Source: Bosea sp. (in: a-proteobacteria) (lineage in GTDB: Bacteria; Pseudomonadota; Alphaproteobacteria; Rhizobiales; Beijerinckiaceae). Taken from it: a stretch of 64,000 nucleotides of DNA. Position numbers and translations under genes: made by a program. Numbering within the stretch: position 1 is the first letter of the stretch; each line of letters starts with the position of its first letter. The stretch spans positions 1,664,698 to 1,728,697 of the forward strand of contig JAAVVV010000001.1 of the NCBI GenBank assembly GCA_023910605.1, written 5' to 3'. Of this stretch, positions 1 through 14,029 are shown one piece after another. The notes under the pieces were generated by a model, which worked only from the letters and a program-made list of their open reading frames with translations, made no database searches and was not told the DNA's origin.

Positions 1-582
1 GGTCTGGAAGCCCGAAAGGTTCGGGTTGCCCTCGGCCTTCATGATCTTCTCGGCGCCGGCCTGAAGCTCGGCCCAGGTCTTTGGCGGCTGCACGCCATGC
101 TTCTCGAGCAGGTCCTTGCGGTAGTAGAGGAACTGCGCATCCGCGAAGTAGGGCAGGGCGATGACGCGGCCGCCCACGATGTTGGCCTCGCGATAGGCGG
201 GCAGATAGCGCGCCATGATCTTGTCCCTGTCGGCGCCCAGGAACTGGTCGAGCGGCTCGGCCCACTGTGCGGCGGCCCACTGCGCCGGCCGGATCACGTC
301 GATCAGGATCACGTCGAGCGCGGAATCCTTCGAGGCCAGCACGGTGTTGAGGTATTGCTGCTGCTGCTCGGAGGTGGCGCCGCCGACCTCGACCTCGATC
401 TTCACGCCGGGCGTGCGCTTCTCGTATTCATCGGCGATCTTGCGCATCACGTCGGGGCGCTGCTGCCCGCCGGTGAAGATGCGCAGGGTCGTCTGCGCCA
501 TGGCGAGGCTGGACACGCCGACGCTCAGGGCGAAGCCGAGCGTGGCGCCCAGCGACAGGTTCAGGAAAGTCCGCTTCTTCAT
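1..582 (-). CDS. Sugar ABC transporter substrate-binding protein (partial, N-terminal part)
   Basis: The 194 visible residues are the N-terminus of an extracellular solute-binding protein (family 1, sugar type); the gene continues past the left edge. A typical Sec signal peptide (MKKR, hydrophobic stretch, LAMA-Q) covers about residues 1-29. The mature part starts TTLRIFTGGQQ and carries the usual WAELQAGAEKI segment near residue 180. The start is the ATG at 582-580, with an AGGACA-type ribosome site just upstream. It lies 31 bp downstream of the MalK-type ATPase gene in the same direction, so the two form one transporter operon whose permeases should lie left of the window. The substrate is not readable from the sequence; the neighbouring kinase, aldolase and isomerase suggest a sugar, possibly sulfoquinovose or a glycoside of it. 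Confidence 0.85.
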   Translation of the reverse strand, partial: MKKRTFLNLSLGATLGFALSVGVSSLAMAQTTLRIFTGGQQRPDVMRKIADEYEKRTPGVKIEVEVGGATSEQQQQYLNTVLASKDSALDVILIDVIRPAQWAAAQWAEPLDQFLGADRDKIMARYLPAYREANIVGGRVIALPYFADAQFLYYRKDLLEKHGVQPPKTWAELQAGAEKIMKAEGNPNLSGFQT

Positions 583-613
583 GGATTTGTCCTCCCTTGG
601 ACAGGTTGTGGCT

Positions 614-1690
614 TCAGGCGGCGAGCGCCCCGCCGGTTTCAGTGTCGAACAGATGCATGTCGCTGGCGCCCAGCGAGACGGTGACCTCGTCGCCGGGTTT
701 GACGCCGGACTGCGGCGGAAAGCGGCCCGTGAGCGTGGCGCCGCCGATGCTGAGCAGCGCCAGCGTCTCCGCGCCCAGAGGCTCCAGGATCTCGACCCGC
801 GCCTTGGCGTTGACGCCGCCGGGCAGGGCGTCGGGCCCCAGCTTCACATGCTCGGGCCTGAAGCCCGCATCATAGCGCGCGCCTGGCCTCAGCCCCGCGC
901 GCGCCGGCAAGGCGAGCCCCGACGGCATGGCCAGCATCCGGGCGTCAGCGCTCGCGGTGAGCCTTGCGAAGCTCATCGGCGGGGAGCCCATGAAGCCCGC
1001 GACGAACCTGGAGGCCGGCTTGTTGTAGATGTCGTCCGGCGTCGCGAACTGTTCGAGATGGCCCGCGCGCAGCACTGCGATGCGGTCCGCCAGCGTCATC
1101 GCCTCGACCTGGTCATGCGTGACGTAGACGATCGAAGTGCCGAAGCGCTGGTGCAGCTTCTTGATCTCGATGCGCACCTCGGCACGCAGCTGGGCGTCGA
1201 GATTCGACAACGGCTCGTCGAAAAGGAAAACGCGCGGGCGGCGCACGATGGCGCGGCCCATGGCCACGCGCTGGCGCTGCCCGCCCGAGAGCTGCCCCGG
1301 CCTGCGGTCGAGCAGGTGGCCGATCTGCAACACCTCCGACGCTTCCTTGACGCGCTCGGCGATCTCCTGGGGCGCTGCGCCCCGCATCTTCAGCCCGAAG
1401 GCCATGTTGTCGTAGACGCTCTTGTGCGGATAGAGCGCATAATCCTGGAACACCATGGCGATGTCGCGCTCGCGCGGGGCCAGGTCGTTCACCACCGTGC
1501 CGCCGATGTCGATCTCTCCGCCGGTCACGGACTCGAGGCCCGCGATCATGCGCAACAGGGTCGATTTTCCGCAGCCGGACGGGCCGACCAGCACCACGAA
1601 CTCGCCATCGCCGAAGCTCAGGTCAATGCCGTGGATCACCTCGGCCTTGCCGAAAACCTTGCGGACCTTGCGGATGGTCACCGCTGCCAC
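614..1690 (-). CDS. Sugar ABC transporter ATP-binding protein, MalK/UgpC type
   Basis: This is the ATPase that powers a sugar importer of the CUT1 class (358 aa). Walker A GPSGCGKST is at residues 36-44, the Q-loop FQDYALYPH near 81-89, the signature LSGGQ at 134-138, Walker B VFLFDEP at 154-160, the D-loop SNLD directly after it, and the H-loop histidine in YVTHD near 190. The C-terminal 120 residues match the TOBE/MalK regulatory domain in length. It is first in a leftward operon with the binding protein and divergent from the PfkB kinase operon. The intergenic region between them carries the GTCTTATATAAGAC palindrome, so it is probably controlled by the GntR regulator at 7660-8430. Confidence 0.93.
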   Translation of the reverse strand: MAAVTIRKVRKVFGKAEVIHGIDLSFGDGEFVVLVGPSGCGKSTLLRMIAGLESVTGGEIDIGGTVVNDLAPRERDIAMVFQDYALYPHKSVYDNMAFGLKMRGAAPQEIAERVKEASEVLQIGHLLDRRPGQLSGGQRQRVAMGRAIVRRPRVFLFDEPLSNLDAQLRAEVRIEIKKLHQRFGTSIVYVTHDQVEAMTLADRIAVLRAGHLEQFATPDDIYNKPASRFVAGFMGSPPMSFARLTASADARMLAMPSGLALPARAGLRPGARYDAGFRPEHVKLGPDALPGGVNAKARVEILEPLGAETLALLSIGGATLTGRFPPQSGVKPGDEVTVSLGASDMHLFDTETGGALAA

Positions 1691-1784
1691 GCGTCTCTCC
1701 CCTGGAATGACTGCCTCTGACGGGCGCCTTCGCCTGATCGTGCCTTGCTGACGTCCGAAACGCCAGAGTTCCCTTTATGCCCAA

Positions 1785-1798
1785 GTCTTATATAAGAC
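1785..1798. promoter_or_regulatory. Perfect 14-bp palindrome GTCTTATATAAGAC, candidate GntR operator (copy 1)
   Basis: The sequence GTCTTATATAAGAC equals its own reverse complement and lies between the divergent ABC transporter and kinase operons. An identical copy lies at 8433-8446, directly upstream of the GntR-family gene and in the divergent region before suyA. Two identical 14-bp palindromes at the two divergent promoters of this region are best read as the binding site of the local GntR/UTRA regulator. The binding itself is inferred. Confidence 0.75.
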
Positions 1799-1876
1799 AC
1801 AAGACCCTTGAGGTTTTCGTGGTCCGGGTCTAAACCGGGCCTTCGGTCCACCCTCGGAGATCCATCAGGTTCAGGC

Positions 1877-2767
1877 ATGGCGAGCGTCCTGTGCGTCGGA
1901 ATTGCGACGCTTGATTACATTTATGGCGTCGAAAGCCTGCCGACCGAGGGCCGGAAGTATCGCGCCGCCGCGCTTGAGGTGCTTGGCGGCGGCATCGCGG
2001 CCAATGCAGCCGTGGCCGTGGCCCGGCTGGACGGGCGAGCCTCGCTTGTGACCCGCCTTGGCGACGACATCGCTGGCGATGCGATCCGGGCCGGCCTTGC
2101 CGATGAGCATGTCGATCTGGACCTGTGCCGCCCGTTGGCGGGGGGACGCTCGCCCGTAAGCGCCGTGATGGTCGATCGCGGCGGCGAGCGCATGATCGTA
2201 TCCTATTCCGACGCCGCCCTGCCGGCTATGCCCGAATGGTTGCCCGCCGCCCTGCCCGCAGGGGTCGGCTGCTTGCTGGGCGACACCCGCTGGGAGGAGG
2301 GCGCGCTGCACCTGTTCCGCCTGGCGAGGAGCGCTGGCGTGCCCGCCCTTCTCGATGGCGACCGCAAGCCGATGGACCCCGCGCTTCTCGATGCCGCCAG
2401 CCACATCGCCTTCAGCGAGGTGGGGCTGAAGGAACTCACCGGGCTTGATGATCCTGCCCGTGCGCTCCTCGGCGTCAAGGCCGACGCGCGCTGGCTGGCC
2501 GTCACTGCTGGCGAGCGCGGCGTCTGGGTCCGCGAGGGCGGGAGCATCACCCATGTCGAGGCCTTTCCCATACAGGCCGTGGACACGCTCGCGGCCGGCG
2601 ATGTCTGGCACGGCGCTTTCGCGCTGGCGCTGGCGGAAGGCCGGCCGGAAATGCAGGCCGTCCGCTTCGCCAATGCGGCCGCAGCCATCAAGTGCACCCG
2701 CTTCGGCGGGCGGAAAGGCGCGCCGGCACGCGCCGAAGTCGAACTCTTCCTGAAGGAACGCTCATGA
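1877..2767 (+). CDS. PfkB-family sugar kinase (candidate sulfofructose kinase, YihV-like)
   Basis: This 296-aa protein is a ribokinase/PfkB-type carbohydrate kinase that would phosphorylate a sugar with ATP in the cytoplasm. The glycine-rich N-terminal segment EVLGGGIAANAAVAVARL is at residues 34-51, and the second PfkB signature DTLAAGD, with the catalytic Asp, is at 236-242. The usual DTTGAGD has Leu-Ala here. The ATG at 1877 was chosen because the protein then begins MASVLCVGIATLDY, the normal family start; the reading frame is open further upstream to about 1808. Its stop overlaps the aldolase start (ATGA, 2764-2767), so the two are translationally coupled. Kinase plus LacD-type aldolase is the core pair of the sulfo-EMP pathway, but also of tagatose catabolism. 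A sulfofructose kinase role is inferred from context. Confidence 0.85.
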   Translation: MASVLCVGIATLDYIYGVESLPTEGRKYRAAALEVLGGGIAANAAVAVARLDGRASLVTRLGDDIAGDAIRAGLADEHVDLDLCRPLAGGRSPVSAVMVDRGGERMIVSYSDAALPAMPEWLPAALPAGVGCLLGDTRWEEGALHLFRLARSAGVPALLDGDRKPMDPALLDAASHIAFSEVGLKELTGLDDPARALLGVKADARWLAVTAGERGVWVREGGSITHVEAFPIQAVDTLAAGDVWHGAFALALAEGRPEMQAVRFANAAAAIKCTRFGGRKGAPARAEVELFLKERS

Positions 2768-3795
2768 CAACGCTCTCGCCCGGCAAGCTCTGGGGCCTGC
2801 GCCGGATGGCCGACGCGGCTGGCCTGTTCAAGATGGTGGCGGTGGACCAGCGCCCGCCGATCAAGAACCCGATCAAGGCCGCGCGCGGCGCCGCCGAGGC
2901 GCCCTATGATGATGTGGCCGGCTTCAAGCTCATGCTCGTCGAGGAATTGCAGGCCCATGCCTCGGCCATGCTGCTCGATCCGCATTTCGCCCTGCCGAGG
3001 GGGCTCTCCCTGCTCTCGCCCGCCAAGGGCCTGATCGTGACGCTGGAGGATTCGATCTTCCGCGAGACGCCGGGCGGGCGGCTGTCGTCCCAGATCGACC
3101 ACTGGTCCGTCGAGAAGATCAAGCGCACAGGCGCCGACGCCGTGAAGGTCCTGGCCTGGTATCGCCCCGATGCCGATGTGGCCGTCAACCGCGCCCAGCA
3201 GGATTTCACCAAGGCCATCGGCGAGGCCTGCGCCCGCTGCGACATTCCCTTCCTGTTCGAATTGCTGGTCTATCCGCTGGCGAAGGACGAGCACCAGACC
3301 ACAGATTATGTCGAGATGCAGGGCAAGCACGCTGGGCACGTGCTCGACAGCGTCCGCGAATTCGCCAGGCCCGATTACGGCATCGATGTCTTCAAGCTCG
3401 AGAGTCCGGTGCCGGCCAAGGGCATCGATGCTGCCGACCGCGCCGCCACGCAGGCGCTCTTCAACGAGATGGGCGCGCTCAGCGGCCGCCCCTGGGTGAT
3501 GCTCTCGGCCGGCGCCTCCATGGCCGAGTTCAGGATCGTCATGGAGCACGCCTACGCCGCCGGCGCCTCGGGCTATCTCGCGGGCCGCGCCATCTGGGCG
3601 GAGCCGTTCAGGGCTTTCCCCGACTGGGACGCGATCCGCGATGGCCTGCGCAGCCGTTCCGTCCCCTACATGGCCGAACTGAATGCGTTGACCGACCGGA
3701 AGGGCACCGCCTGGTTCGATCACCCGCTCTATGGCGGCAAGGCTGCCGTCGAACATGCCGATGACAGCTTCCGGCTGCACTACAAGGCAGGCTGA
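2764..3795 (+). CDS. Class I aldolase of the LacD/YihT family (candidate sulfofructose-1-phosphate aldolase)
   Basis: This 343-aa protein belongs to the tagatose-1,6-bisphosphate aldolase family (COG3684), which also holds E. coli YihT, the 6-deoxy-6-sulfofructose-1-phosphate aldolase. Landmarks are VAVDQR (residues 25-30), the Schiff-base lysine K211 in DVFKLESP, LSAGAS (247-252) and GYLAGRAIW (270-278). The reaction expected is cleavage of a ketose (bis)phosphate to dihydroxyacetone phosphate plus a three-carbon aldehyde, which would be 3-sulfolactaldehyde if the substrate is sulfonated. The start ATG overlaps the kinase stop. The neighbouring sulfolactate cluster under the same putative operator favours the sulfosugar reading; an ordinary tagatose-type substrate is the alternative. 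Confidence 0.85.
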   Translation: MTTLSPGKLWGLRRMADAAGLFKMVAVDQRPPIKNPIKAARGAAEAPYDDVAGFKLMLVEELQAHASAMLLDPHFALPRGLSLLSPAKGLIVTLEDSIFRETPGGRLSSQIDHWSVEKIKRTGADAVKVLAWYRPDADVAVNRAQQDFTKAIGEACARCDIPFLFELLVYPLAKDEHQTTDYVEMQGKHAGHVLDSVREFARPDYGIDVFKLESPVPAKGIDAADRAATQALFNEMGALSGRPWVMLSAGASMAEFRIVMEHAYAAGASGYLAGRAIWAEPFRAFPDWDAIRDGLRSRSVPYMAELNALTDRKGTAWFDHPLYGGKAAVEHADDSFRLHYKAG

Positions 3796-3819
3796 TGTCC
3801 GGACGCCGAAAAATGCCGG

Positions 3820-3918
3820 TGTCATCCCCGCCGGCCAGCAGGGCCGACAAGGTGGGGCCGCCGGCCGCAGGCAAATGCATCCCCATCCCCTCCGCAGCGC
3901 TCCGGCCGGGGATGACAT
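3820..3918. repeat. Intergenic imperfect palindrome (TCATCCCC / GGGGATGAC arms)
   Basis: The arms TGTCATCCCCGCCGGCC near 3819-3835 and GGCCGGGGATGACATC near 3904-3919 are inverted relative to each other and flank about 70 bp. The element fills the gap between the aldolase and isomerase genes. Related elements with a GGGAAGGG core lie at 12938-13042 and 23300-23395. They look like short interspersed palindromic elements rather than gene-specific signals. Confidence 0.6.
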
Positions 3919-3943
3919 CAAGGCGCGAGAAGAGGTTCAACCC

Positions 3944-5341
3944 ATGCCCGTGATCGGCATCCTGCCCCTGGCCCGGCCCACCTTCGATGTGCCCTATGCC
4001 GAGGAGATGGCCGCAGCCTGCTTCAAGGCGCTGGAGGCCACCGGCCACATGATCATCGGCTCCCGCGCCCTGCTCTTCGACGCGGCGGCGACGGAAGCCG
4101 CCCTTGCGGAGCTCAGGATGCAGAAGATCGACCTTCTGCTGATCCTGCAGGTCACCTTCACCGATGCCTCCATGACGGTGCGCATCGCCAGGGAGCAGCT
4201 TGCGCCGCTCGCCATCTGGGCGATGCCGGAGCCGCGCGCGGGCGGGCGGCTCCGGCTCAACGCCTTCTGCGGCCTCAACCTCGCGGCCCATGCGCTCGGC
4301 CTTGCCGGCGTGCCGCTGCGCTGGCTCTACAGCGCGCCCGACGCGCCCATGATCGGTGACGCGATTGGCGGACTGGTGGTCGGCGAGGAGCGCGATGTGG
4401 CCTTCACGGCCGGGCCTGCGCCCTCGCTGGTGGAGCGCGAGCAGGCCAGGCGCGTGATGAAGGCCCTTTCGGGCCAGTCGATCGGCCTTGTCGGCGAGCA
4501 TCCCGCAGGCTTCGACACCTGCGCCTATGATCCGGCGCGCCTTGCGGCGCTGGCCGGCGTCGATGTCCGGCGCATTGCGTTGCCCGAACTGTTCGAGACG
4601 GCGCGCGCCGTGCCGGCCGACGCCATCGCGGCCACGCGCGCCATGGTCGCGGCCCGGCTCGACGGGCTCGACGCCGTGGATCAGCCCCAGCTCGAGCGCA
4701 GCCTCGGCGTCTACCACGCGCTCGGCGCATTGCGGGATGCGAAGGGCTGTTCGGCCATGGCGGTGCGCTGCTGGCCCGAGCTGTTCACCGATCATGGCTG
4801 CGCCGCCTGCGGCCCCATGGGCCTGCTCACCGAGGGCAAGACGCCTTGCGCCTGCGAGGCCGATGTCTACGGCGCGCTGACCGGCATGATCCTTCAGGAA
4901 GTGTCGGGCGCCCCGGCCTGGCTGGTCGATGTCGTGGACTTTGACGGCAAGGACGACACGGCCGTGTTCTGGCATTGCGGCTCCGCGCCGCTCTCCATGG
5001 CCGATCCCGAGGTGAGGCCCCGCGCCCAGATACACACCAACCGCAAGATGCCGCTCTTGCAGGAGTTCACCCTCAAGCCCGGCCGCGTCACCATCTGCCG
5101 CATCAGCCAGGCGAAGGGGCGCACCAGCATGATCCTCGCGGGCGGGGAGATGCTGCGCGCGCCGATGAGCTTCACCGGAACCTCCGGCGTCGTGCGCTTC
5201 GACCGCGCCGCGGATGATGTGATGGAGGCCATGATGGAGTTCGGCCTCGAGCACCATGTCGCGATCGTCTATGGCGAGCATCGGGGCACGCTCAGGGCGT
5301 TGGGCGAGGAAATGGGCCTGCCCGTGGTGGAGCTGGCGTGA
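3944..5341 (+). CDS. L-fucose/L-arabinose isomerase-like protein (candidate sulfosugar isomerase)
   Basis: This 465-aa protein resembles the COG2407 group of L-fucose isomerase-related proteins, which interconvert aldoses and ketoses with a divalent metal. The segment GEHPAGFDTCAYD (about residue 185 onward) and the C-terminal DTAVFWHCGSAP are typical of the group. The start at 3944 gives MPVIGILPLARPTFDVPY and has an AGAGG ribosome site about 9 bp upstream. The frame is open further upstream through the palindromic repeat, but that part does not look coding. The stop overlaps the next ATG (TGATG, 5339-5343). Set between a kinase, an aldolase and an oxidoreductase it would supply the ketose for the kinase. 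This class is not the YihS isomerase of classical sulfo-EMP, so the match to sulfoglycolysis is an inference. Confidence 0.75.
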   Translation: MPVIGILPLARPTFDVPYAEEMAAACFKALEATGHMIIGSRALLFDAAATEAALAELRMQKIDLLLILQVTFTDASMTVRIAREQLAPLAIWAMPEPRAGGRLRLNAFCGLNLAAHALGLAGVPLRWLYSAPDAPMIGDAIGGLVVGEERDVAFTAGPAPSLVEREQARRVMKALSGQSIGLVGEHPAGFDTCAYDPARLAALAGVDVRRIALPELFETARAVPADAIAATRAMVAARLDGLDAVDQPQLERSLGVYHALGALRDAKGCSAMAVRCWPELFTDHGCAACGPMGLLTEGKTPCACEADVYGALTGMILQEVSGAPAWLVDVVDFDGKDDTAVFWHCGSAPLSMADPEVRPRAQIHTNRKMPLLQEFTLKPGRVTICRISQAKGRTSMILAGGEMLRAPMSFTGTSGVVRFDRAADDVMEAMMEFGLEHHVAIVYGEHRGTLRALGEEMGLPVVELA

Positions 5342-6558
5342 TGACGGACATTGTTCGCTATGGTCTGGTCGGCGCCGGCATGATGGGGCGCGAGCATATC
5401 CGCAACCTGGCGCTGGTGCCCGGCGCGGTCGTGACTGCCGTCTCCGATCCCGACGCTGACCAGCGCGCCATGTCGGCTGCGGCGGCCGGCGGCGCGAAGC
5501 CCTTCGCCGATCACCGCGATCTGCTTGAGTCAGGCCTCGTCGACGCGCTGGTCATCGCCAGCCCCAACGACACGCACATGGCCATCCTCGGGGACATCTT
5601 CGCAGCGCCGAAGGCCCTGCCGATCCTGGTGGAAAAGCCTGTCTGCACGACGCTGGCCGACTGCGATGGACTGGAGCGGGCCGCCGCCGCCTATGGCGCG
5701 CCGATCTGGGTGGCGATGGAATACCGCTACATGCCGCCCGTGGCCGAGCTGCTGCGCGAGGTCCGCGCCGGCACGGTGGGCCGGCTCAGGATGTTCGCGA
5801 TCCGCGAGCACCGCTTTCCCTTCCTCAAGAAGGTGGGCGACTGGAACCGCTTCACCGAGCGCACCGGGGGCACGCTGGTCGAGAAATGCTGCCATTTCTT
5901 CGACCTGATGCGGTTGGTCGCGGCTGACGAGCCGGTGCGGGTCTATGCCTCGGGCGCAGCCGACGTGAACCATCGCGACGAGAGCTATGGCGGGCGCGTG
6001 CCCGACATCCTCGACAATGCCTTCGTGATCGTCGATTTCCGCTCAGGGATCAGGGCGATGCTCGACTTGTGCATGTTTGCCGAGGGCAGCTACTGGCAAG
6101 AAGAGCTTGCGGCGACCGGCTCGGCTGGCAAGGTCGAAGCCTTCGTGCCGGGCCCGGCGCGCTTCTGGCCGGGCGGCGGCGAGCGGGCGAGCGAGATCCT
6201 GGTGTCGCCGCGCGAGCCCAAGAACCCTGTGCGCCGGCAGGTGCATGTTGACGAGGCCATTCTGATGGCCGGCGACCATCACGGCTCAACCTACTACCAG
6301 CACATGGGCTTCAATCGCGTGGTGCGGCAGGGCGGCGCCGTGGAGGTCACCATGGCTGACGGGCTCATGGCGGTTCGCATCGGCCTTGCCGCCGAGCGAT
6401 CCATCCGCGAGAGCGTGCCCGTCGCTCTCTGGCGCGGCGGTGGCGGCCTTGGTGCGGAACGCTTTGGCCCGGAACGCTTTGGCCCGGAACGCTTTGGGCC
6501 GGAAGGCTTTGGCCCGGAAGGATCTGGCCCGGAAGGATCTGGCCTGGCCGGGCATTGA
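5341..6558 (+). CDS. Gfo/Idh/MocA-family oxidoreductase with repetitive C-terminal tail
   Basis: This 405-aa NAD(P)-dependent enzyme has an N-terminal Rossmann motif (GLVGAGMMGREH, about residues 8-19), the EKP motif in LVEKPVC, and a second conserved block GTLVEKCCHFFDLM. The family acts on sugars, inositols and related compounds, and includes NAD-dependent glycosidases, one group of which hydrolyses sulfoquinovosides. The ATG at 5341 overlaps the upstream stop; a GTG at 5338 is in frame. The C-terminus ends in six imperfect 15-bp repeats (6451-6540) encoding GPERF/GPEGF/GPEGS units, which are absent from the normal fold and probably disordered. It is last in the operon. A sugar dehydrogenase or an NAD-dependent sulfoquinovosidase are both possible. 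Confidence 0.82.
   Translation: MTDIVRYGLVGAGMMGREHIRNLALVPGAVVTAVSDPDADQRAMSAAAAGGAKPFADHRDLLESGLVDALVIASPNDTHMAILGDIFAAPKALPILVEKPVCTTLADCDGLERAAAAYGAPIWVAMEYRYMPPVAELLREVRAGTVGRLRMFAIREHRFPFLKKVGDWNRFTERTGGTLVEKCCHFFDLMRLVAADEPVRVYASGAADVNHRDESYGGRVPDILDNAFVIVDFRSGIRAMLDLCMFAEGSYWQEELAATGSAGKVEAFVPGPARFWPGGGERASEILVSPREPKNPVRRQVHVDEAILMAGDHHGSTYYQHMGFNRVVRQGGAVEVTMADGLMAVRIGLAAERSIRESVPVALWRGGGGLGAERFGPERFGPERFGPEGFGPEGSGPEGSGLAGH
6451..6540 (+). repeat. Six tandem 15-bp repeats inside the 3' end of the oxidoreductase gene
   Basis: The unit GGCCCGGAACGCTTT is repeated six times with drift (the last two copies end GGATCT). It is in frame, so each copy adds five residues: GAERF, GPERF, GPERF, GPEGF, GPEGS, GPEGS. 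The array ends just before the stop codon. Confidence 0.95.
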
Positions 6559-6597: not shown

Positions 6598-7596
6598 TCA
6601 GTTCACCGCGCCGGCTGCGACGCCCGCTTCGCGCAGCGCCTTGGCCCATTTCGCCACCTCGCCCTCGAAGGCCGCCTTGTGGGCTGCCGGCGTCCGCTGG
6701 GACTCGGGAAAGGAGGTGGTGCCGAAAGAGGCGAAACGCTCGTTCACGGCCGGGTCCTTCATCGCGGCCTGAAGCGCCGTGCTGAGCCGGGCGATCGCCT
6801 CGGCCGGCGTGCCTTTGGGCGCGTAGAGGCCATGCCAGATGGTCATCTCCACCGGTGTGCCCGCCTCGCGGGAGGTGGGCACATCCTTGATGACGTCCAG
6901 CCGCTCGGCCGAGGTCACTGCATAGGCGCGGATCTTGCCGCCCTGGACCTGCGGCACGGCCGTGGTGGACTGGTCGCACAGCGCATCCACCTGTCCGCCG
7001 ACGAGGTCGTTCATGGCCGGGCCCGTGCCGCGATAGGCGACCTGCGTCGGCTTGGCCCCGACGGCCTGGCTCATCAGGATGATGCACAGGTGCGAGTTGG
7101 AGCCGACGCCGGCATGGGCCATGGTCAGCTTGTCGCCCTGCGACCTGGCATAGGCGAAGAAGTCGCGCGCATTCTGCGGCGGCAGCGCCATTTTGCCGGT
7201 GATGACCATCGGGCCGGTGTTGATCATGCCCAGCGGCTCGAAGGCGGTGGCGGTGTCGTAGCGCAGGTTGTTGTAGAGCGCGGGCGCCGCCTTCAGCGCC
7301 AGATGATGGATGAGGATGGTGTAGCCATCGGGCGCCGCAGTGGCGAGGCGCGAGGCCCCGGCCGTGCCGCCCGCGCCGGCCACGTTCTCGACGATGACCT
7401 GCTGGCCGAGCGTGCGGCCCATGTGCTCGGCGACGAGCCGGCCGATCACGTCGGATGGCCCGCCGGCGGCGAACGGCACGATCAGCGTGATCTGCTTGTT
7501 GGGGAAGCCCTGCGCTGCGGCGGGCGCGGCGGCCAGCAGGCAAAGCCCGGCCGCAGCGGCAGCCGTCAGCGTGATGGATGTGGTGGTTCGTGACAT
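6598..7596 (-). CDS. Tripartite tricarboxylate transporter (Bug family) substrate-binding protein, SlcH-like
   Basis: This 332-aa periplasmic protein has a Sec signal (about residues 1-27, ending AAAPAAAQG) and the Bug/TctC fold marks: ITLIVPFAAGGPSDVIGR near the mature N-terminus, VENVAGAGGTAG, and the central block VAYRGTGPAMNDLVGGQVDA. The ATG at 7596 was chosen because GGGAGGGT precedes it by 5 bp and the signal peptide starts there. It lies downstream of the GntR gene on the same strand, so both can be transcribed from the operator-bearing promoter near 8430. The TctA/TctB membrane subunits are not adjacent. Beside a sulfolactate cluster it may bind sulfolactate or a related sulfonate, as the slcHFG system does elsewhere; this is inferred. 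Confidence 0.85.
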   Translation of the reverse strand: MSRTTTSITLTAAAAAGLCLLAAAPAAAQGFPNKQITLIVPFAAGGPSDVIGRLVAEHMGRTLGQQVIVENVAGAGGTAGASRLATAAPDGYTILIHHLALKAAPALYNNLRYDTATAFEPLGMINTGPMVITGKMALPPQNARDFFAYARSQGDKLTMAHAGVGSNSHLCIILMSQAVGAKPTQVAYRGTGPAMNDLVGGQVDALCDQSTTAVPQVQGGKIRAYAVTSAERLDVIKDVPTSREAGTPVEMTIWHGLYAPKGTPAEAIARLSTALQAAMKDPAVNERFASFGTTSFPESQRTPAAHKAAFEGEVAKWAKALREAGVAAGAVN

Positions 7597-7659
7597 GTGT
7601 ACCCTCCCAAGGTTCGTTTTGCTGGACGCCGGGATCATCAGACCCCGGCGAATGGCTTG

Positions 7660-8430
7660 TCAGCGCATGAACGAAAGATAGTGCGCATCATCGGTGAGGC
7701 ACAGGCTCACCCGCCATTCGACGGGTCGCGCATCGAGCGACAGCGCCAGGCGCTGCACCATGAGCGCGGGATGGCCCGGCGGCTTGCCCAGCGCCTCGGC
7801 GTCGCGCGAGGTCAGCGCCACCGCCTTCAGCTTCTCGCGGGCATGGGCGATGGTCACGCCGTATCGCTCTGCATAGAACGCATAAAGGCTGTTCGGCACG
7901 GCATCGTCCGTGATGCGGGGGAACATCGCATCGGGCAGGGACAGCGTCTCGATGATCATCGGCACATTGTCGATGGCGCGCATCCGGCGCACGCGAGCCA
8001 CCTTGGCGCCCGCCTCGAGCCCGAGCTGCTCGCGCTCGGTGGCGGTGGCTGTATGCACCGCAGCCTCGAGCACGACGCTTTCGGGGAATCGCGCGATGCC
8101 GTCATCCGGAACCAGCTTGAAAAACTGGAAGAGAATGCGCTTTTCGTCGTGCTGCGCCACGAAGGTGCCGCGTCCCTGCTGGCGCACCAGCAGGTTCTCG
8201 CCAGCGAGTTCGTCCAGCGCCTTGCGCACCGTGCCCTGGCTGACGCCGATCTCGGCGGCGAGCTGCCCCTCGCTTGGCAGCAGGAAGCCGGCGGGCCAGA
8301 CCCCGTCCACCATCCGCTTCACGAAGGCGTCCTTGACCTGCCGGTAGAGCGGCCGGAATCCGACAGGGACCGGCGCCGCTGCGCTCGCTCCCGAACCATG
8401 ATCGTCGATTTCAGGCTTGTCAGAAGTCAT
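7660..8430 (-). CDS. GntR/HutC-family transcriptional regulator (UTRA domain), probable regulator of the sulfonate island
   Basis: This 256-aa repressor-type protein has a GntR winged helix (about residues 27-95, helix-turn-helix AAEIGVSQGTVRKAL at 58-72, then GRGTFVAQ) and a UTRA effector-binding domain from about residue 105. The start chosen is the ATG at 8430 (MTSDKPEIDD). The palindrome GTCTTATATAAGAC lies 2 bp upstream of this ATG, leaving no room for a ribosome site; the TATAAG inside it could be a -10 box for a leaderless mRNA. An alternative ATG at 8454 would put the palindrome inside the gene. It is divergent from suyA, and the second palindrome copy links it to the sugar operon at 1785. 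Confidence 0.87.
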   Translation of the reverse strand: MTSDKPEIDDHGSGASAAAPVPVGFRPLYRQVKDAFVKRMVDGVWPAGFLLPSEGQLAAEIGVSQGTVRKALDELAGENLLVRQQGRGTFVAQHDEKRILFQFFKLVPDDGIARFPESVVLEAAVHTATATEREQLGLEAGAKVARVRRMRAIDNVPMIIETLSLPDAMFPRITDDAVPNSLYAFYAERYGVTIAHAREKLKAVALTSRDAEALGKPPGHPALMVQRLALSLDARPVEWRVSLCLTDDAHYLSFMR

Positions 8431-8432: not shown

Positions 8433-8446
8433 GTCTTATATAAGAC
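8433..8446. promoter_or_regulatory. Perfect 14-bp palindrome GTCTTATATAAGAC, candidate GntR operator (copy 2)
   Basis: This is identical to the copy at 1785-1798. It sits in the 107-bp region between the gntR start and suyA, so binding here could control both directions, including autoregulation of gntR. Confidence 0.78.
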
Positions 8447-8537
8447 CAAAACATCGGAGCCGTCGAGGGGGCCGCGAAGGATTGTTCGCGGCGGACCGGG
8501 GCGGTCGCTGGATGAAACATGAAACCGGGAGGAATGA

Positions 8538-8825: not shown

Positions 8826-8837
8826 GCGCGGCACGCC

Positions 8838-8965: not shown

Positions 8966-8996
8966 GCATCGGCTCCCTGACGAGAAAGATGACATC

Positions 8997-10277
8997 ATGA
9001 CCATTGTCGCCAATTTCGAACTCAACAAGAACCGCCTGGCCAACATCAAGGGCCGCAAGATCGACGTGCCGGGCTTCAAGTCTCCGGTGCTGAAGAAGCG
9101 CTCCTCGGCCAGGCATGACAACTTCATGGGCTGGCGCCGCGAGAACGGCCGCGTCGGCGTGCGCAACCATGTGCTGATCCTGCCCCTCGATGATTTGTCC
9201 AACAGCGCCTGCGAGGCCGTGGCCAACAACATCAAGGGCACGCTCGCCATCCCCCACGCCTATGGCCGGCTCCAGTTCGGCGAGGATCTCGATATCCACT
9301 TCCGCACCCTGATCGGCGCGGGCTCGAACCCGAACGTGGCCGCCGTGGTCGTGATCGGCATCGAGGATGGCTGGACCAAGATCGTGGTCGACGGCATCGC
9401 CAGGACCGGCAAGCCGGTCGTGGGCTTCGGCATCGAGGGCGTGGGCGACATCGGCACCATTGCCAAGGCCAGCTATGTCGCCAAGGAATTCGTGCAGTGG
9501 GCCTCCGAACTCACCCGCGAGAAGTGCGACATCGGCGATCTCTGGGTCTCCACCAAGTGCGGCGAGAGCGACACCACCACGGGCCTGTCGTCCTGCCCCA
9601 CCGTCGGCAACATGTATGACAAGTTGCTCCCCAAGGGCATCCACGGCGTCTTCGGCGAAACCTCCGAGATCACCGGCGCCGAGCACCTGTGCAAGGCGCG
9701 TGCGGCCACGCCGGAGGTCGGAGAGCGCTGGTACAAGATGTGGCAGGCCTACCAGACCGACGTGATCGAGCAGTTCAAGACCTCCGACCTGTCGGACAGC
9801 CAGCCCACCAAGGGCAACATCAAGGGTGGGCTCTCGACCATTGAGGAAAAGGCGCTGGGCAACCTCGAGAAGATCGGCCGCGAGTCGAAGTTCATCGACA
9901 TTCTCCAGCCAGCCGAGACGCCGCAGAAGGGCCCCGGCCTTTACTTCATGGACACCTCTTCGGCCGCTGCCGAATGTGTGACCCTGATGGCGGCGGGCGG
10001 CTATGTCGTCCACACCTTCCCGACCGGCCAGGGCAACGTCATCGGCAACCCGATCGTCCCCGTGATCAAGATCACCGGCAATCCGCAGACCATGCGCACC
10101 ATGCCCGAGCACATCGACGTGGATGTGTCAGGCATCCTGCGCCGCGACATGACCATCCCCGAAGCCGGCGACGCCCTGATCGCCAACATCGTGCGCACCT
10201 CGAACGGCCGCCTCACCGCAGCCGAGGCGCTTGGTCATCGCGAATTCTCGATGACCAAGCTCTATCGCAGCGCGTGA
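8997..10277 (+). CDS. suyB: (2R)-3-sulfolactate sulfo-lyase, large subunit (UxaA C-terminal family)
   Basis: This 426-aa protein is the catalytic-size partner of SuyA in the UxaA/altronate dehydratase family. It carries the family signature [13 protein letters not shown] (about residues 45-57) and long blocks I recognise from SuyB proteins: [53 protein letters not shown] and [18 protein letters not shown]. It cleaves (R)-3-sulfolactate to pyruvate and sulfite in the cytoplasm. The ATG at 8997 gives [13 protein letters not shown]; the frame is open further upstream only through the palindromic repeat. It is second in the suyA-suyB-GNAT-suyZ-slcC-comC run. An altronate dehydratase would be one fused gene with uronate genes nearby, which are absent. 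Confidence 0.88.
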
Positions 10278-10289
10278 TGCCCATGATCG

Positions 10290-10370
10290 TCATTGCGAGG
10301 AGCGAAGCGACGAAGCAATCCAGCTGCGGCAAGCGCCGTTCTGGATTGCTTCGCTGCGCTCGCAATGACA
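10290..10370. repeat. Interspersed palindromic repeat (GTCATTGCGAG...CTCGCAATGAC)
   Basis: The left arm begins GTCATTGCGAGGAGCGAAGC at 10290 and the right arm ends CGCTGCGCTCGCAATGAC at 10370, with GCAATCCAG / CTGGATTGC continuing the pairing inward. This is the family of palindromes scattered widely in alphaproteobacterial genomes. It separates suyB from the GNAT gene. Confidence 0.85.
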
Positions 10371-10380
10371 GTTTGGCGTG

Positions 10381-10938
10381 ATGACACCGCAGCTTCAACT
10401 CGTTGCGCCGTCTCGCACTCATCTGGATGCTTACACGGCGGCGCTCAGGACAGGCTGGTCGCCCTTCGCCGCGCGCGACGTGTCCCGCGAGCATCTTGAT
10501 GCGATCAGCAGGGACGCCGAGGCGTTCATCCTCGACCAGAACCGGGTCGAGGGCGGCGTCATCACCCTGCCTGACGGATCGAGCCGGCCGCGCCTGCCGA
10601 TGAAGATGCGCTGGATGTGGGACGGCGATTTTTGTGGGGCGGTCAACCTGCGCTGGCAGAAGGGCACGGACGCGCTGCCGCCCTACGTAGCAGGCCATGT
10701 CGGCTATACGGTCGTGCCCTGGAAACGCCGTATGGGTCATGCGACCGCTGCGCTCGGCCTGATCCTCTGCGAGGCGCGGTCCGTGGGGCTTGGGAAGGTC
10801 GAGATCACCACCCATCCCGACAACGAAGCTTCCCGTCGCATCATTGAAGGGCATGGCGGCCGTTTCGTAGAGGAGTTCGTCAACCCGCACTACGGCGACA
10901 GGCCGCAGCTGCGTTACACGATCGATCTGGCGCCATGA
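10381..10938 (+). CDS. GNAT-family N-acetyltransferase embedded in the suy operon
   Basis: This 185-aa protein has a GNAT acetyl-CoA-binding region (VGYTVVPWKRRMGHATAALGL, about residues 105-125) followed by the typical beta5 / alpha4 segment KVEITTHPDNEASRRIIEGHGG. The ATG at 10381 is used; a GTG at 10378 is in frame. Its stop overlaps the start of the exporter gene (ATGA, 10935-10938), so it is translationally coupled to a sulfonate-pathway gene. The acceptor is unknown. Its function in sulfolactate use is not established; it may be a passenger or act on an amine linked to the pathway. Confidence 0.8.
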   Translation: MTPQLQLVAPSRTHLDAYTAALRTGWSPFAARDVSREHLDAISRDAEAFILDQNRVEGGVITLPDGSSRPRLPMKMRWMWDGDFCGAVNLRWQKGTDALPPYVAGHVGYTVVPWKRRMGHATAALGLILCEARSVGLGKVEITTHPDNEASRRIIEGHGGRFVEEFVNPHYGDRPQLRYTIDLAP

Positions 10939-11990
10939 CGACCTTGAGCCTGCCATCCGCCGCCATGGTCCGGAAGCTCGCCCCAGGCATGCTGCTGTCG
11001 CTGGCGGTGGCGATTGCGTCCTATCTCGCCGCGCCGCTGCTCAAATCGCTGACCGGCGGTCGCCTCGCGCTACCGGACATGGTGATCGCCCTGATCATCG
11101 GCATTGCGCTGCATTCCACCGTGATGACGCCTCGCTTCGAGCCGGGCATGACCTTCTGTGTGAAAAAGCTGCTGCGCTGGGCCATCGGTCTGCTGGGCCT
11201 GCGCATCGCGCTGGGGGACATCATTGGCCTCGGCCTCGGTGTGGCCATGCTGGTCGTGGCCTCGATGATCCTCACGGTCGTGGCCGCCATCTGGCTCGCC
11301 AGGGTGCTGGACCGCGATGTGGGTTTCGGCGCGCTCGCGGGTGCGGCCAATGCGGTCTGCGGCGCATCCGCGACGCTGGCGGCGGCGACAGTGGTGCCCG
11401 ACTACAAGCGCAAGAGCGCGGACATCGCCTTCACGGTGGTGATGGCGAACGCGATCTCCACCATCGTGATGCTGGCCTATCCGCCGCTTTGCATCTGGCT
11501 GGGCCATGATGCGCGCACCACGGGCATCATGCTCGGCGCCACAATCCATGACATGGCGCAGGTGGTCGGCGCGGGCTATGCCGTGTCGGAGAGCGTCGGC
11601 AACACAGCCGTCATCGTCAAGCTCTTCCGCGTTTTCCTGCTGCTGCCGATGGTGCTCGCCATCGGCTGGTATTTCGTACGGCAAGGCGAGGCCACCGGCG
11701 AGGCCAAGGTGCCGGTGCCCGTCTTCGCGCTCGTCTTCCTGGGCCTGTGCCTGCTCAACAGCGTGATGATGGCGAGCCCTGCGCTCTCTGCTCCGGTGGG
11801 GTATCCCGTCATCAAATCCGTGCTTGGCGAGGCTTCCAAATGGGGCCTTCTGGTCGCCATCGCCGCGCTCGGGCTCGGCACCTCGCTCAAATCCATCCTC
11901 ACCATCGGCTGGCGCCACATGGCCGTGTTCATGGGCGCCACGCTGGTCATCCTGCTCGTCATCCTGGCGGGCCTTCGCCTTCTCGCCTGA
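10935..11990 (+). CDS. suyZ: YeiH/PSE-family exporter (SuyZ-like, putative sulfate/sulfite exporter)
   Basis: This 351-aa integral membrane protein has about ten hydrophobic segments and the family marks of the putative sulfate exporter (PF03601, YeiH) group: MVIALIIGIALHS, LLRWAIGLLGLRIALGDI, GAANAVCGASATLAAA and GATIHDMAQVVGAGYAVS. In sulfonate degraders the SuyZ member is placed with suyAB and is thought to expel the sulfate or sulfite left after desulfonation. Here it is coupled to the GNAT gene upstream and lies 9 bp before slcC. The family is certain; the transported ion is inferred from context. Confidence 0.82.
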   Translation: MTTLSLPSAAMVRKLAPGMLLSLAVAIASYLAAPLLKSLTGGRLALPDMVIALIIGIALHSTVMTPRFEPGMTFCVKKLLRWAIGLLGLRIALGDIIGLGLGVAMLVVASMILTVVAAIWLARVLDRDVGFGALAGAANAVCGASATLAAATVVPDYKRKSADIAFTVVMANAISTIVMLAYPPLCIWLGHDARTTGIMLGATIHDMAQVVGAGYAVSESVGNTAVIVKLFRVFLLLPMVLAIGWYFVRQGEATGEAKVPVPVFALVFLGLCLLNSVMMASPALSAPVGYPVIKSVLGEASKWGLLVAIAALGLGTSLKSILTIGWRHMAVFMGATLVILLVILAGLRLLA

Positions 11991-11999
11991 GGGACAGAC

Positions 12000-12932
12000 A
12001 TGCCCGACATCGTCATCACCGAATTCATGGACGAGGCCGCGATCGCCGAAGGCCTCAAGGGGCATGACGTGGTCTATGACCCCAAGCTCGTCGACAAGCC
12101 CGAGGAACTGGCGAGCCTTCTGGGGGACGCGCGCGCCATCATCGTGCGCAACCGCACCCAGGTGCGCGAGCCGCTGCTGGCTGGAGCCCCGAAGCTGAAG
12201 GTGGTCGGCCGCCTCGGCGTCGGGCTCGACAACATCGACATGGTGGCCTGCGCCGCCCGGTCCATCGCGGTCCATCCCGCAACCGGCGCCAATGACGTTT
12301 CGGTGGCGGAATACGTCATCACCGCCGCGCTGGTGCTGCTGCGCCGCGCCTGGTTCGCCACCGACCGCGTCGCGAATGGCGGGTGGCCGCGCAACGACCT
12401 GATGGGCTGCGAGATCTCGGGCAAGACGCTCGGCCTCGTCGGCTTCGGCGCTATCGCCCGCGAGACGGCGATGCGGGCGCGGGCGCTGGGCATGAAGGTC
12501 GTCGCGCATGACCCTTTCCTGAGGGCGGATGATCCGGCCTGGGCCCGGCTCGGCGCCACGCCGGCCGAGCTGCCCGCTCTGCTGCGCGAGGCCGATGTCG
12601 TCTCGCTGCACGTGCCGCTGACCGAGCGCACCCGCGGCATGATCGGCGCCGGCGCGCTTGCCTCGATGAAGCGCAGCGCCATCCTCATCAACGCCGCGCG
12701 CGGCGGGGTGGTGGACGAGCCCATGCTCGTCTCTGCCCTGAAGGACGGCGTCATCGCGGGCGCGGCGCTCGATGTTTTCGATGTGGAGCCGCTGAAGGGC
12801 GAGCAGGCGGCGCTGTTTGCAGGCTGCCCCAACCTCATCCTTACCCCCCACATCGCCGGCGTGACGGAAGAATCCAACGTGCGCGTCAGCTGGGTTACGG
12901 TCGAGAACGTGAAGCGGGCGCTGGCCGGATAG
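12000..12932 (+). CDS. slcC: D-isomer-type 2-hydroxyacid dehydrogenase, probable (S)-sulfolactate dehydrogenase
   Basis: This 310-aa NAD-dependent dehydrogenase of the SerA superfamily has the cofactor motif GLVGFGAIARE (about residues 143-153). Its catalytic residues are the Arg in NAARGG, the Glu in DVFDVEP and the His in TPHIAG. In sulfolactate degraders SlcC oxidises (S)-sulfolactate to sulfopyruvate, and the present N-terminus (IVITEFMDEAAI) and IVRNRTQVRE resemble those proteins. It follows the exporter gene by 9 bp and precedes comC. Together with ComC it would invert the stereocentre of sulfolactate for SuyAB. Activity on an ordinary 2-hydroxyacid is the alternative. Confidence 0.82.
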   Translation: MPDIVITEFMDEAAIAEGLKGHDVVYDPKLVDKPEELASLLGDARAIIVRNRTQVREPLLAGAPKLKVVGRLGVGLDNIDMVACAARSIAVHPATGANDVSVAEYVITAALVLLRRAWFATDRVANGGWPRNDLMGCEISGKTLGLVGFGAIARETAMRARALGMKVVAHDPFLRADDPAWARLGATPAELPALLREADVVSLHVPLTERTRGMIGAGALASMKRSAILINAARGGVVDEPMLVSALKDGVIAGAALDVFDVEPLKGEQAALFAGCPNLILTPHIAGVTEESNVRVSWVTVENVKRALAG

Positions 12933-12937
12933 CCGGG

Positions 12938-13042
12938 CTGTTGTCCCCGGCTTGTCCGGGGCGCGGGAAGGGAACCCCTTGCCGACTCATCGCGCCCTTT
13001 ACCGGATCCCTTTCCCGATGCTCGCTGCGTCGCCGGGATGAC
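12938..13042. repeat. Intergenic palindromic element with GGGAAGGG core
   Basis: The element contains TGTCCCCGGCTTGTCCGGGG, CGGGAAGGGAACCCC and, inverted further on, GGATCCCTTTCCCGATGC with CGCTGCGTCGCCGGGATGAC. It fills the slcC-comC gap and shares its inner core with the element at 23300-23395 and its outer arm with that at 3820-3918. Confidence 0.55.
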
Positions 13043-13057
13043 ACTGGAGATGATGCC

Positions 13058-14029
13058 ATGACCACGCTTTCGATCCCCGACGCCATCGCCCATGTCGCAG
13101 CCCTCTTCACGCAGGCCGGCGTGTCCCCCGCCAATGCACGCTCCGTGGCGACGGCGCTGGTCATGGCCGAGGCTGACGGCCTCAAGGGTCACGGCCTTTC
13201 GCGCGTGCCGAGCTATCTCGCCATGGCCCGCAACGGCAAGATCGACGGCAAGGCCGTGCCGGTGGCGACCCAGCCCCGGCCCGGCGTGCTCGCCATCGAT
13301 GCCAGGGACGGCTTCGCCTATCCGGCCATCGATCTCGCCATCGACCGGCTGCCGGCCGTTGCCCGCGCGCAGGGCGTCGCCATCGCCCCGATCAGCCGAT
13401 CGAGCCATTGCGGCGCGGCCGGCCTGCATGTCGAGAAGCTGGCCGATGCTGGCCTCGTGGCCCTGCTCTTCGCCAACACGCCGGGCGCGATGGCGCCCTG
13501 GGGCGGCTCGCGCCCCGTCTTCGGCACCAACCCCATCGCCTTCGCCGCGCCACTTCAGGGCCGCGAGCCCGTGGTCATCGACATGGCGCTGTCCAAGGTG
13601 GCGCGCGGGCCGATCATCGCGGCCAGGCAGAAGGGCGAGAGCATCCCCGAAGGATGGGCTCTCGACGCCGGCGGCAAACCCACCACCGATCCGGCCCAGG
13701 CGCTGGCGGGCACCATGGTGCCGCTCGGCGACGCCAAGGGCGCCACGCTCGCCATGATGGTCGAGATCCTCGCCGCCGCGCTGGTGGGCGCGAACTTCGC
13801 CTTCGAGGCCTCGTCCTTCATGGATGACAAGGGCGGCCCGTCCCGCACCGGCCAGCTGATCCTCGCCATCGATCCCGTCGCCATGGGCGGCGACGGGTTC
13901 GCCGCGCGGATGGTTGCGCTCGCCGCAGCGATCGAGAGGCAGCCCGGCACGCGCCTTCCCGGCTCACGACGCGCGTTATTGCGTATGAAATCCGAAAATG
14001 ACGGCATGAAAATGCCGGAATTTGACTAA
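13058..14029 (+). CDS. comC: Ldh/malate dehydrogenase-2 family enzyme, probable (2R)-3-sulfolactate dehydrogenase
   Basis: This 323-aa protein belongs to the malate/L-lactate dehydrogenase (Ldh_2) family, a fold distinct from ordinary lactate dehydrogenases. Family marks are the early ADGLKGHGLSRVPSY segment (about residues 34-48), ISRSSHCGAAG and PWGGSRPVFGTNPIAFAAP. ComC interconverts sulfopyruvate and (R)-sulfolactate with NAD(P)H. The ATG at 13058 has GGAGA 8 bp upstream. It is the last gene of the run; the next gene follows after 126 bp. The tail after LPGSRR is short and AT-richer. Confidence 0.82.
   Translation: MTTLSIPDAIAHVAALFTQAGVSPANARSVATALVMAEADGLKGHGLSRVPSYLAMARNGKIDGKAVPVATQPRPGVLAIDARDGFAYPAIDLAIDRLPAVARAQGVAIAPISRSSHCGAAGLHVEKLADAGLVALLFANTPGAMAPWGGSRPVFGTNPIAFAAPLQGREPVVIDMALSKVARGPIIAARQKGESIPEGWALDAGGKPTTDPAQALAGTMVPLGDAKGATLAMMVEILAAALVGANFAFEASSFMDDKGGPSRTGQLILAIDPVAMGGDGFAARMVALAAAIERQPGTRLPGSRRALLRMKSENDGMKMPEFD

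Follow-up and report, generated by a model that had tools for sequence, protein, structure and literature searches.

Within a 64,000-nucleotide window of the 3.76-Mb genome of Bosea sp. (contig JAAVVV010000001.1, C1:1664698-1728697), positions 1-14029 and a further ≈ 4 kb to their left form a gene island which, as a genomic prediction, very probably encodes a one-regulon pathway for the complete use of sulfoquinovose (SQ) and sulfoquinovosyl glycerol. SQ is the sugar of plant sulfolipid, and its aerobic breakdown, the sulfolytic monooxygenase and dioxygenase routes aside, is mostly described as the joint work of two species, with sulfolactate or 2,3-dihydroxypropane-1-sulfonate (DHPS) excreted by the first and desulfonated by the second. 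With both halves in a compact regulon, complete single-cell SQ breakdown by sulfoglycolysis becomes directly testable. The production of SQ is put at ≈ ten billion tons a year (PMC10755693).

In the proposed route a SmoF-type ATP-binding cassette (ABC) transporter would import sulfoquinovosyl glycerol, from which the GH188 glycosidase SqgA would free SQ with the help of catalytic NAD+. A mutarotase and an SqvD-type isomerase would convert SQ to sulfofructose, and a YihV-type kinase together with a class I aldolase would cleave the latter to dihydroxyacetone phosphate and (S)-sulfolactaldehyde (SLA). Oxidation of (S)-SLA to (S)-sulfolactate may fall to an unlinked GabD-type dehydrogenase; SlcC and ComC would then lead from (S)-sulfolactate via sulfopyruvate to (R)-sulfolactate, which SuyAB would split into pyruvate and sulfite, with a SuyZ-like protein exporting the sulfite. 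The GntR protein of the sulfolactate module would bind the palindrome GTCTTATATAAGAC at both divergent promoters, the inducer probably being a C3 intermediate such as sulfolactate.

The original prediction, made from the letters of the window, had joined sulfosugar glycolysis to sulfolactate desulfonation under one regulator. As a prediction this is supported by the gene content and by the shared, conserved operator, to which the family placement of the proteins and their key residues can be added, all of them read from the sequence. Every gene named there was recovered as an open frame of the window, and the kinase, LacD/YihT-type aldolase, isomerase, suyA, suyB, SuyZ-like, slcC, and comC genes indeed lie in one island (Table 1), which also holds two members absent from that account, the genes of a TctC-type binding protein and of a GNAT-like protein. 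The further claim that one organism may take a C6 sulfonate to pyruvate and sulfite finds sequence support for every proposed step, except that no gene for the oxidation of SLA was found in the island.

Predicted substrate and sulfosugar core

The strongest two clues to the substrate, a GH188 sulfoquinovosidase and a SmoF-type binding protein, had both been missed. The solute-binding protein has its nearest solved relative in SmoF, the sulfoquinovosyl-glycerol-binding protein (PDB 7nbz, E 1.1e-121; next distinct sequence 1.1e-69). A sugar ABC transporter had been noted correctly, and only its extent needed correction: the binding protein and the permease-like frames continue to the left of the window, where two such frames are followed by a convergent gene for an aldose 1-epimerase, that is, a mutarotase (PF01263). 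The protein labelled a Gfo/Idh/MocA oxidoreductase in the original prediction had to be renamed a predicted GH188 sulfoquinovosidase, SqgA, on account of its PDB matches to 8qc3 (E 5.1e-146) and 8qc2 (E 6.9e-142), followed by 8zn9, a ‘putative oxidoreductase’ (E 1e-122), and of its sulfonate triad. The GH188 structure of PMC10755693 is named 8QC2 in PMC11465081, and 8qc3 presumably belongs to the same series.

A search with an isomerase alignment gave 335 relatives in GTDB genomes, of which the best-scoring 80 were kept as loci with flanks of up to 10 kb (L-numbers label fetched loci, G-numbers sampled genomes). Genes in the loci were scored by tblastn with analysis-specific score floors, and residue alignments left out matches with less than 85% coverage or with stops, which kept 73 of 74 kinases, 72 of 73 aldolases, 80 of 80 isomerases, and 48 of 53 SqgA proteins. 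Many loci are contigs of metagenome-assembled genomes (MAGs), with 56 of the 80 at least 17 kb long, and the absence of a nearby gene is weak evidence. The SqgA triad Arg159/Leu163/Lys165, equivalent to Arg166/Leu170/Lys172 of ArSqgA, is kept in 48 of 48 aligned relatives and makes the protein one of the Leu type, the Tyr type being that of PMC11465081; sequence family and triad both assign SqgA to GH188. Because FlSqgA is reported to show no activity on nitrophenyl glucosides (PMC10755693), the sqgA gene points specifically to SQ glycosides.

A fucose-isomerase-like rather than YihS-like isomerase had been expected, and this is borne out. The sole NCBIfam match (query sequences began at 3938, one codon before the start at 3941) is NF048012, SftI (sulfoquinovose isomerase), at 271 of 700 bits; PF02952 is matched as well, and by these scores the protein is a distant branch of the SftI/SqvD group and no SftI equivalog. 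No match to PDB sequences was obtained at E up to 1, and a fold model was therefore made (predicted local distance difference test score 91.5). Its Foldseek matches were L-arabinose and L-fucose isomerases, with a root-mean-square deviation near 24 Å and a template-modelling (TM) score near 0.58, values which support placement in the superfamily only. The positions aligned with FucI Glu337, Asp361, and His528, which we take to be the metal ligands, are identical in 80 of 80 relatives. A plasmid search with the isomerase returned 53 records, none with at least 60% identity (best 40%, Zymomonas mobilis). The metal ligands of FucI are retained in SqvD (PMC9594981).

The best PDB match of the kinase is E. 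coli sulfofructose kinase (7ag6, E 3.2e-59). The kinase shares Lys27, Asp136, Arg138, and His247 (E. coli YihV numbering) with YihV and with 73 of 73 aligned relatives, the ribokinase residues at these positions being Thr, Gln, Glu, and Asn; Lys27, Asn109, and Arg138 of YihV are presumably the sulfonate-contact residues. For the aldolase the top match is 8tnf (E 5.5e-91, TM 0.84, 46% identity), titled sulfohexulose-1-phosphate aldolase from Paracoccus strain Merri, with LacD next and then YihT. Its Lys211 occurs in 72 of 72 aligned relatives and aligns with a Lys of YihT, these two residues being the Schiff-base lysines on our assumption. Fold and position of the catalytic lysine fit a class I sulfofructose-1-phosphate (SFP) aldolase, for which the substrate is predicted.

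The provenance of 8tnf raises the question whether the upper half might serve another sulfohexose instead of SQ, for example sulfofucose via sulfotagatose, given that the closest solved aldolase relative comes from a strain able to use sulfofucose for growth but not SQ (PMC12421959) and that the isomerase is of the fucose-isomerase type. On the other hand, GH188 and the SmoF-like binder point to SQ glycosides, and the PfkB kinase and PF01791 aldolase clustered in strain Merri were not raised on sulfofucose, which is degraded by an Entner-Doudoroff (ED) route (PMC12421959). Furthermore, none of the island proteins scanned fell into the families to which the sulfofucose dehydratase SfcF belongs. 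A sulfofucose pathway is unlikely on this balance, and SQ is preferred as the substrate of the island.

Predicted sulfolactate desulfonation and the oxidation of sulfolactaldehyde

The identities of SuyB to plasmid homologues fall into two groups: among the 40 of 315 records listed, 13 share 57-84% with it, and the other 27, separated by a gap, do not exceed 38.6%. To the upper group belong the copy beside hpsN/hpsO in Cupriavidus pinatubonensis (67%) and that of a Paracoccus aestuarii cluster with genes for GntR, TctC, a hydroxyacid dehydrogenase, an Ldh-family oxidoreductase, and a putative sulfate exporter; copies adjoining hpsN/hpsO or slcC/comC-like genes share 67-84% identity with SuyB. 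SuyA is 46, 61, and 73% identical to the small subunits of the Cupriavidus, Methylobacterium, and Paracoccus clusters, respectively, and SuyA/SuyB appear to form a two-subunit enzyme of the UxaA family within the SuyB group. NCBIfam gave no match over cut-off for SuyB (galactarate dehydratase 121.7 bits, cut-off 730.85). Altronate or galactarate dehydratase was ruled out as its function by the identity gap, seen among those 40 of 315 records, and by the neighbouring genes.

SlcC is 59% (Paracoccus) and 66% (Methylobacterium) identical to copies beside suyAB, its PDB matches being mostly phosphoglycerate dehydrogenases, and ComC is 63-64% identical to the copies beside suyAB in the same two genera, with NF040650, L-sulfolactate dehydrogenase, as its best model (185 of 500 bits). 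The place of this predicted inversion pair beside suyAB fits the stereochemical course given in PMC12421959, which runs from (S)-SLA to (S)-sulfolactate, sulfopyruvate, and (R)-sulfolactate, and then to pyruvate and sulfite. The models of ComE and Xsc gave no over-cut-off match in this genome, so the ComDE-Xsc route looks unavailable to it. Molybdoenzymes of PF00174 are present in the genome, none of them assigned as a sulfite dehydrogenase.

For the oxidation of SLA the genome offers five PF00171 matches. One of them, a GabD-type candidate at C1:1754835-1756247, lies ≈ 76 kb beyond comC, unlinked to the island. The aldehyde dehydrogenase (ALDH) adjoining comC in a same-family genome is 59% identical to this protein and has no other match in the Bosea genome at E up to 1e-60. 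A GabD-like ALDH occurs in 25 of the 80 relatives' loci and stands next to comC in two same-family genomes. In Rhabdaerophilum calidifontis (L178), which belongs to the same family, the cluster includes a linked ALDH. The candidate has Arg at both positions proposed for sulfonate binding, and Arg occupies the same two positions in human succinate-semialdehyde dehydrogenase (PMC10599462). Judged by its sequence it is a plausible SLA dehydrogenase, and the question of this enzyme, also raised by Paracoccus strain Merri, is narrowed to one candidate gene in this genome.

The shared operator and gene co-occurrence

Identical palindromes had been reported at both divergent promoters, and a search of the whole genome confirmed them: the 14-bp GTCTTATATAAGAC is exact at the two promoters and occurs nowhere else at up to one mismatch (backward-read control 0), while at up to two mismatches the window holds 2 matches against 0.01 expected. 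Among the 80 relatives gntR is found in 25 of 25 suy loci and in 2 of 55 other loci. Sites with up to one mismatch occur in 22 of 27 gntR loci versus 1 of 53 others, and with up to three mismatches in 27 of 27 versus 11 of 53. As counted by eye, 22 of the 27 gntR loci have sites in front of both gntR/suyA and the sugar half; L114, which is among the 22, has its second site 451 bases before an ALDH match, and the five without sites before both halves are L103 (where the contig begins inside the aldolase gene), L124, L126, L132, and L159. The one exact site in a locus scored without gntR is that of L105, which is only 5 kb of contig sequence from a close relative.

The plasmid pMRAD01 of Methylobacterium radiotolerans carries the exact GTCTTATATAAGAC starting 57 bases before suyA (L187 8493-8506), in a cluster whose GntR shares 56% identity with the window's protein and which shows the lower half alone in the 19 kb viewed. 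Before suyA the Paracoccus cluster has a three-mismatch site and the Cupriavidus cluster only a four-mismatch site. The exact operator in a cluster showing only the lower half makes the sulfolactate regulator its most likely owner; this regulator would have taken over the sugar half, and the inducer would hence be a C3 compound. The same operator at both promoters, unique in the genome and conserved in relatives, argues for a single GntR regulon, with GntR as the presumptive binder of the palindrome.

As regards gene content, the 80 loci hold the kinase in 74 cases and the aldolase in 73 (both in 67), GH188 in 53, slcC in 49, and suyA or suyB in 25. The closest ones (L102-L108, isomerase 79-83% identical) stem from MAGs of Hyphomicrobiales or Beijerinckiaceae. 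In a sample drawn from the order, where 50 genomes besides that of the window gave an isomerase match and flanks were fetched in 29 of them, the closest isomerases occur in 19 genomes, that of the window and 18 more; of these 18 isomerases, 18 have the aldolase beside them and 17 the kinase. A SuyB match at E up to 1e-100 occurs in 16 of the 19 genomes versus 66 of 378 others (Fisher 1.8e-9, uncorrected for kinship). Of the three genomes without SuyB, two show part of suyA next to gntR at the end of a contig (L054, L058), and the third is 84% complete.

A GH31 glycosidase occurs in 15 of the 80 loci, never together with GH188, and 12 loci have neither. The zero overlap would have a chance of 2.6e-9 if the loci were independent, which related genomes are not, and it agrees with the complementary distribution of sulfoquinovosidases described in PMC10755693. 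The GH31 gene was seen in L110, L114, L121, L123, L126, and ten others without GH188, and also at L047 6820-8940; the two scanned copies resemble the alpha-xylosidase model PRK10658 more than PRK10426, with scores below both cut-offs. L059-L067 carry a related isomerase (43-47% identical) in the company of tripartite ATP-independent periplasmic (TRAP) transporter and GH31-type genes, with no kinase or aldolase match beside it, perhaps another sulfosugar pathway.

In ten of the 80 loci, all of them with GH188, ComDE (sulfopyruvate decarboxylase) stands in place of SuyAB (L115, L117, L118, L158, L160, L163, L164, L166, L171, L179). The alpha and beta subunit models are over cut-off in L160, and the other nine loci were scored by tblastn. 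DeoR and TRAP genes accompany ComDE in 10 of 10, slcC in 10 of 10, and an ALDH in 9 of 10. No locus holds both suy and comDE (chance 0.018 if independent), and all ten genomes of this form have an Xsc match over cut-off, SuyB being found in 1 of 10. One and the same sulfosugar core thus seems to supply two distinct routes of desulfonation. No report of a coupling between an SQ core and ComDE was found in the literature searched, where the single paper returned concerns gut microbiota, most subscription papers lying outside the search.

Several results weigh against the pathway as drawn. The second PDB match of the kinase, 2rbc, an uncharacterised ‘sugar kinase’, is nearly as close (E 5.4e-55) and shares the Lys and the Arg, and the YihV Asn109 position is occupied by Ser (among 73 aligned relatives Asn 62, Ser 6, Gly 3, Ala 2). 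The active-site check proposed for the kinase came out as in YihV, and unlike ribokinase, at the four residues given above and differently at Asn109. The aldolase scores over the cut-off of NCBIfam tagatose 1,6-diphosphate aldolase (340 bits, cut-off 184), while the isomerase, ComC-like, and SuyZ-like scores lie below their NCBIfam cut-offs. No aldehyde dehydrogenase was found in the island, and the GabD-type candidate resembles ordinary succinate-semialdehyde dehydrogenases, with four other PDB sequences outscoring 8c54, presumably the characterised Rhizobium enzyme. Finally, 45 of the 80 loci have neither suyAB nor comDE in reach, 30 of these with GH188.

Taken at face value, the automatic names would describe a non-sulfonated sugar operon of tagatose, fucose, or inositol type which adjoins suyAB by chance, since tagatose 1,6-diphosphate aldolase (over cut-off) is joined by ribokinase-like and inositol dehydrogenase-like (both below NCBIfam cut-offs). 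Such a chance arrangement is hardly credible in view of the nearest solved relatives of binder, glycosidase, kinase, and aldolase, which are all sulfosugar proteins, and of the mutually exclusive GH188 and GH31 genes of the relatives; a plain tagatose, fucose, or inositol operon was ruled out on the same closest solved relatives. Sites matching tagatose or other non-sulfonated sugars had been named as the outcome that would speak against the original prediction, and the outcome was mostly the opposite (kinase residues, 8tnf ahead of LacD), apart from the NCBIfam name of the aldolase.

The 45 loci and the lack of an island SLA dehydrogenase would also suit two functionally separate neighbours, a sulfoglycolysis that excretes sulfolactate or DHPS and an operon that scavenges sulfolactate, as would the occurrence of suyAB without a sugar half on plasmids of Cupriavidus, Paracoccus, and Methylobacterium, of which 15-19 kb were viewed. 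Separate pathways are nevertheless improbable: the common operator at both promoters is conserved across genera, suyA or suyB is linked in 25 of 80 loci, no SLA reductase occurs among the scanned island proteins, and (S)-sulfolactate would need the SlcC/ComC pair ahead of SuyAB. One pathway under one regulator remains the preferred reading of the island.

Taken jointly, the loci suggest, with the balance tipped only slightly in its favour, that single-cell SQ mineralisation by a hybrid core of the sulfoglycolytic Embden-Meyerhof-Parnas (sulfo-EMP) pathway is widespread among the aerobic Alphaproteobacteria and extends to some Gammaproteobacteria. This core would act as a plug-in unit on two unrelated modules, SuyAB (GntR, ABC or TRAP uptake) or ComDE and Xsc (DeoR, TRAP), and in the SuyAB form the sugar half would have been captured by the sulfolactate regulator, such that a downstream C3 intermediate switches on the uptake and splitting of the C6 compound. 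If so, the two-member relay of sulfoglycolytic SQ breakdown would be the exception in these groups.

Known systems and neighbouring features

The closest precedents are the GH188 ‘Y160’ clusters of Actinobacteria, which Backlund and Higgins (2024, PMC11465081) suggested might be new routes of sulfoglycolysis and which share with the island the sulfofructose kinase, SFP aldolase, fucose isomerase, GH188, SuyA/SuyB, a dehydrogenase of the phosphoglycerate dehydrogenase (PGDH) type, an ABC transporter, and a regulator. In these clusters Tyr occupies the Leu170 site and an SLA dehydrogenase is linked (PMC11465081), whereas the island, from an alphaproteobacterium, is of the Leu type, with ComC- and SuyZ-like genes, a shared operator, and no linked SLA dehydrogenase found. 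In Paracoccus strain Merri a C6 sulfosugar is likewise taken to sulfite in one cell via SlcC, ComC, and SuyAB; its cluster also has a PfkB kinase and a PF01791 aldolase, and its SLA dehydrogenase was not identified either (PMC12421959). There, however, the route is an experimentally shown ED route on sulfofucose, with no isomerase in the cluster as described (PMC12421959), as opposed to a predicted EMP route aimed at SQ.

Sulfoglycolysis and SuyAB also share a cluster, with an SqvD isomerase, in the SuyAB-extended sulfoglycolytic transaldolase (sulfo-TAL) pathway of Thermotogae and Chloroflexi, where a transaldolase takes the place of kinase and aldolase (PMC9594981). The intermediates are those of sulfo-EMP (E. 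coli yih), with its YihV-type kinase and class I aldolase, and of sulfo-EMP2 (B. urumqiensis), with its SqvD-branch isomerase (PMC9594981, PMC12890257). In contrast to both, the island has a hybrid enzyme set, and sulfite and pyruvate are its predicted end products instead of DHPS or sulfolactate; PMC12890257 mentions Proteobacteria and Actinobacteria whose sets are hybrids of sulfo-EMP1/2. The concept is thus already in print for Actinobacteria (PMC11465081), for SuyAB-extended sulfo-TAL (PMC9594981), and for sulfofucose in Paracoccus (PMC12421959); new within the literature searched are the hybrid sulfo-EMP/SuyAB form in Alphaproteobacteria, the shared operator, and the sister form with ComDE and Xsc. 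The value of the island lies in its being complete but for one step, sharply delimited, and directed at SQ glycosides, with a regulatory signature that joins both halves, and it offers a marker set of SqvD-branch isomerase, YihV-type kinase, 8tnf-type aldolase, GH188, SuyAB, and operator.

Table 1. Island features in window coordinates; all enzyme activities, and the dehydrogenase assignments, are predicted. Genes on the minus strand start at their higher coordinate (gntR at 8430).
Feature	Position	Strand	Basis
ABC solute-binding protein, 5' part, SmoF-like	1..582, continues left of window (L003:14003-15280)	-	PDB match to 7nbz SmoF
abcA, ABC transporter ATPase, UgpC/MalK type	614..1690	-	NF008653 over cut-off, 477.9 of 432 bits
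operator palindrome GTCTTATATAAGAC, divergent abcA/kin promoter	1785..1798	.	exact site; similar sites in the same place in relatives
kin, PfkB kinase, predicted sulfofructose kinase, YihV type	1877..2767	+	PDB match and residues
class I aldolase, predicted sulfofructose-1-phosphate aldolase	2764..3795	+	PDB/fold match to 8tnf
iso, predicted sulfoquinovose isomerase, SqvD/SftI branch of L-fucose isomerase superfamily	3941..5341	+	NF048012, PF02952, fold model
SqgA, predicted GH188 NAD+-dependent sulfoquinovosidase	5338..6558	+	PDB matches 8qc3, 8qc2; sulfonate triad
TctC-type solute-binding protein, possibly for sulfolactate	6598..7638	-	PF03401
gntR, GntR/HutC-type regulator, likely regulator of the island	7660..8430	-	GntR-family models, none over cut-off; co-occurrence
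operator palindrome GTCTTATATAAGAC, divergent gntR/suyA promoter	8433..8446	.	exact site; same exact site before suyA in Methylobacterium cluster
suyA, predicted (R)-sulfolactate sulfolyase small subunit, 95 aa	8538..8825	+	sequence
suyB, predicted (R)-sulfolactate sulfolyase large subunit, 426 aa	8997..10277	+	identity to plasmid homologues
GNAT-like gene, named by eye	10378..10938	+	between suyB and suyZ-like gene; match in 1/80 relatives
SuyZ-like putative sulfite/sulfate exporter, YeiH family	10935..11990	+	TIGR00698 108.8 of 232.6 bits, below cut-off; PF03601
slcC-like (S)-sulfolactate dehydrogenase, D-2-hydroxyacid dehydrogenase family	12000..12932	+	PGDH-family models, none over cut-off
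comC-like (R)-sulfolactate dehydrogenase	13058..14029	+	NF040650 best model, below cut-off

The TctC-type protein has no TctA or TctB beside it, and a homologue occurs in 8 of the 80 relatives, mostly the closest ones. An Rfam scan at gathering thresholds gave no match inside the island. Elsewhere in the window, positions 41938-42227 gave a strong match to the 5' ureB small RNA family (111 bits), which may reflect only the conserved coding sequence of ureB. To the right of the island, positions 15247-21460 hold frames which by eye resemble adenine deaminase and xanthine dehydrogenase.

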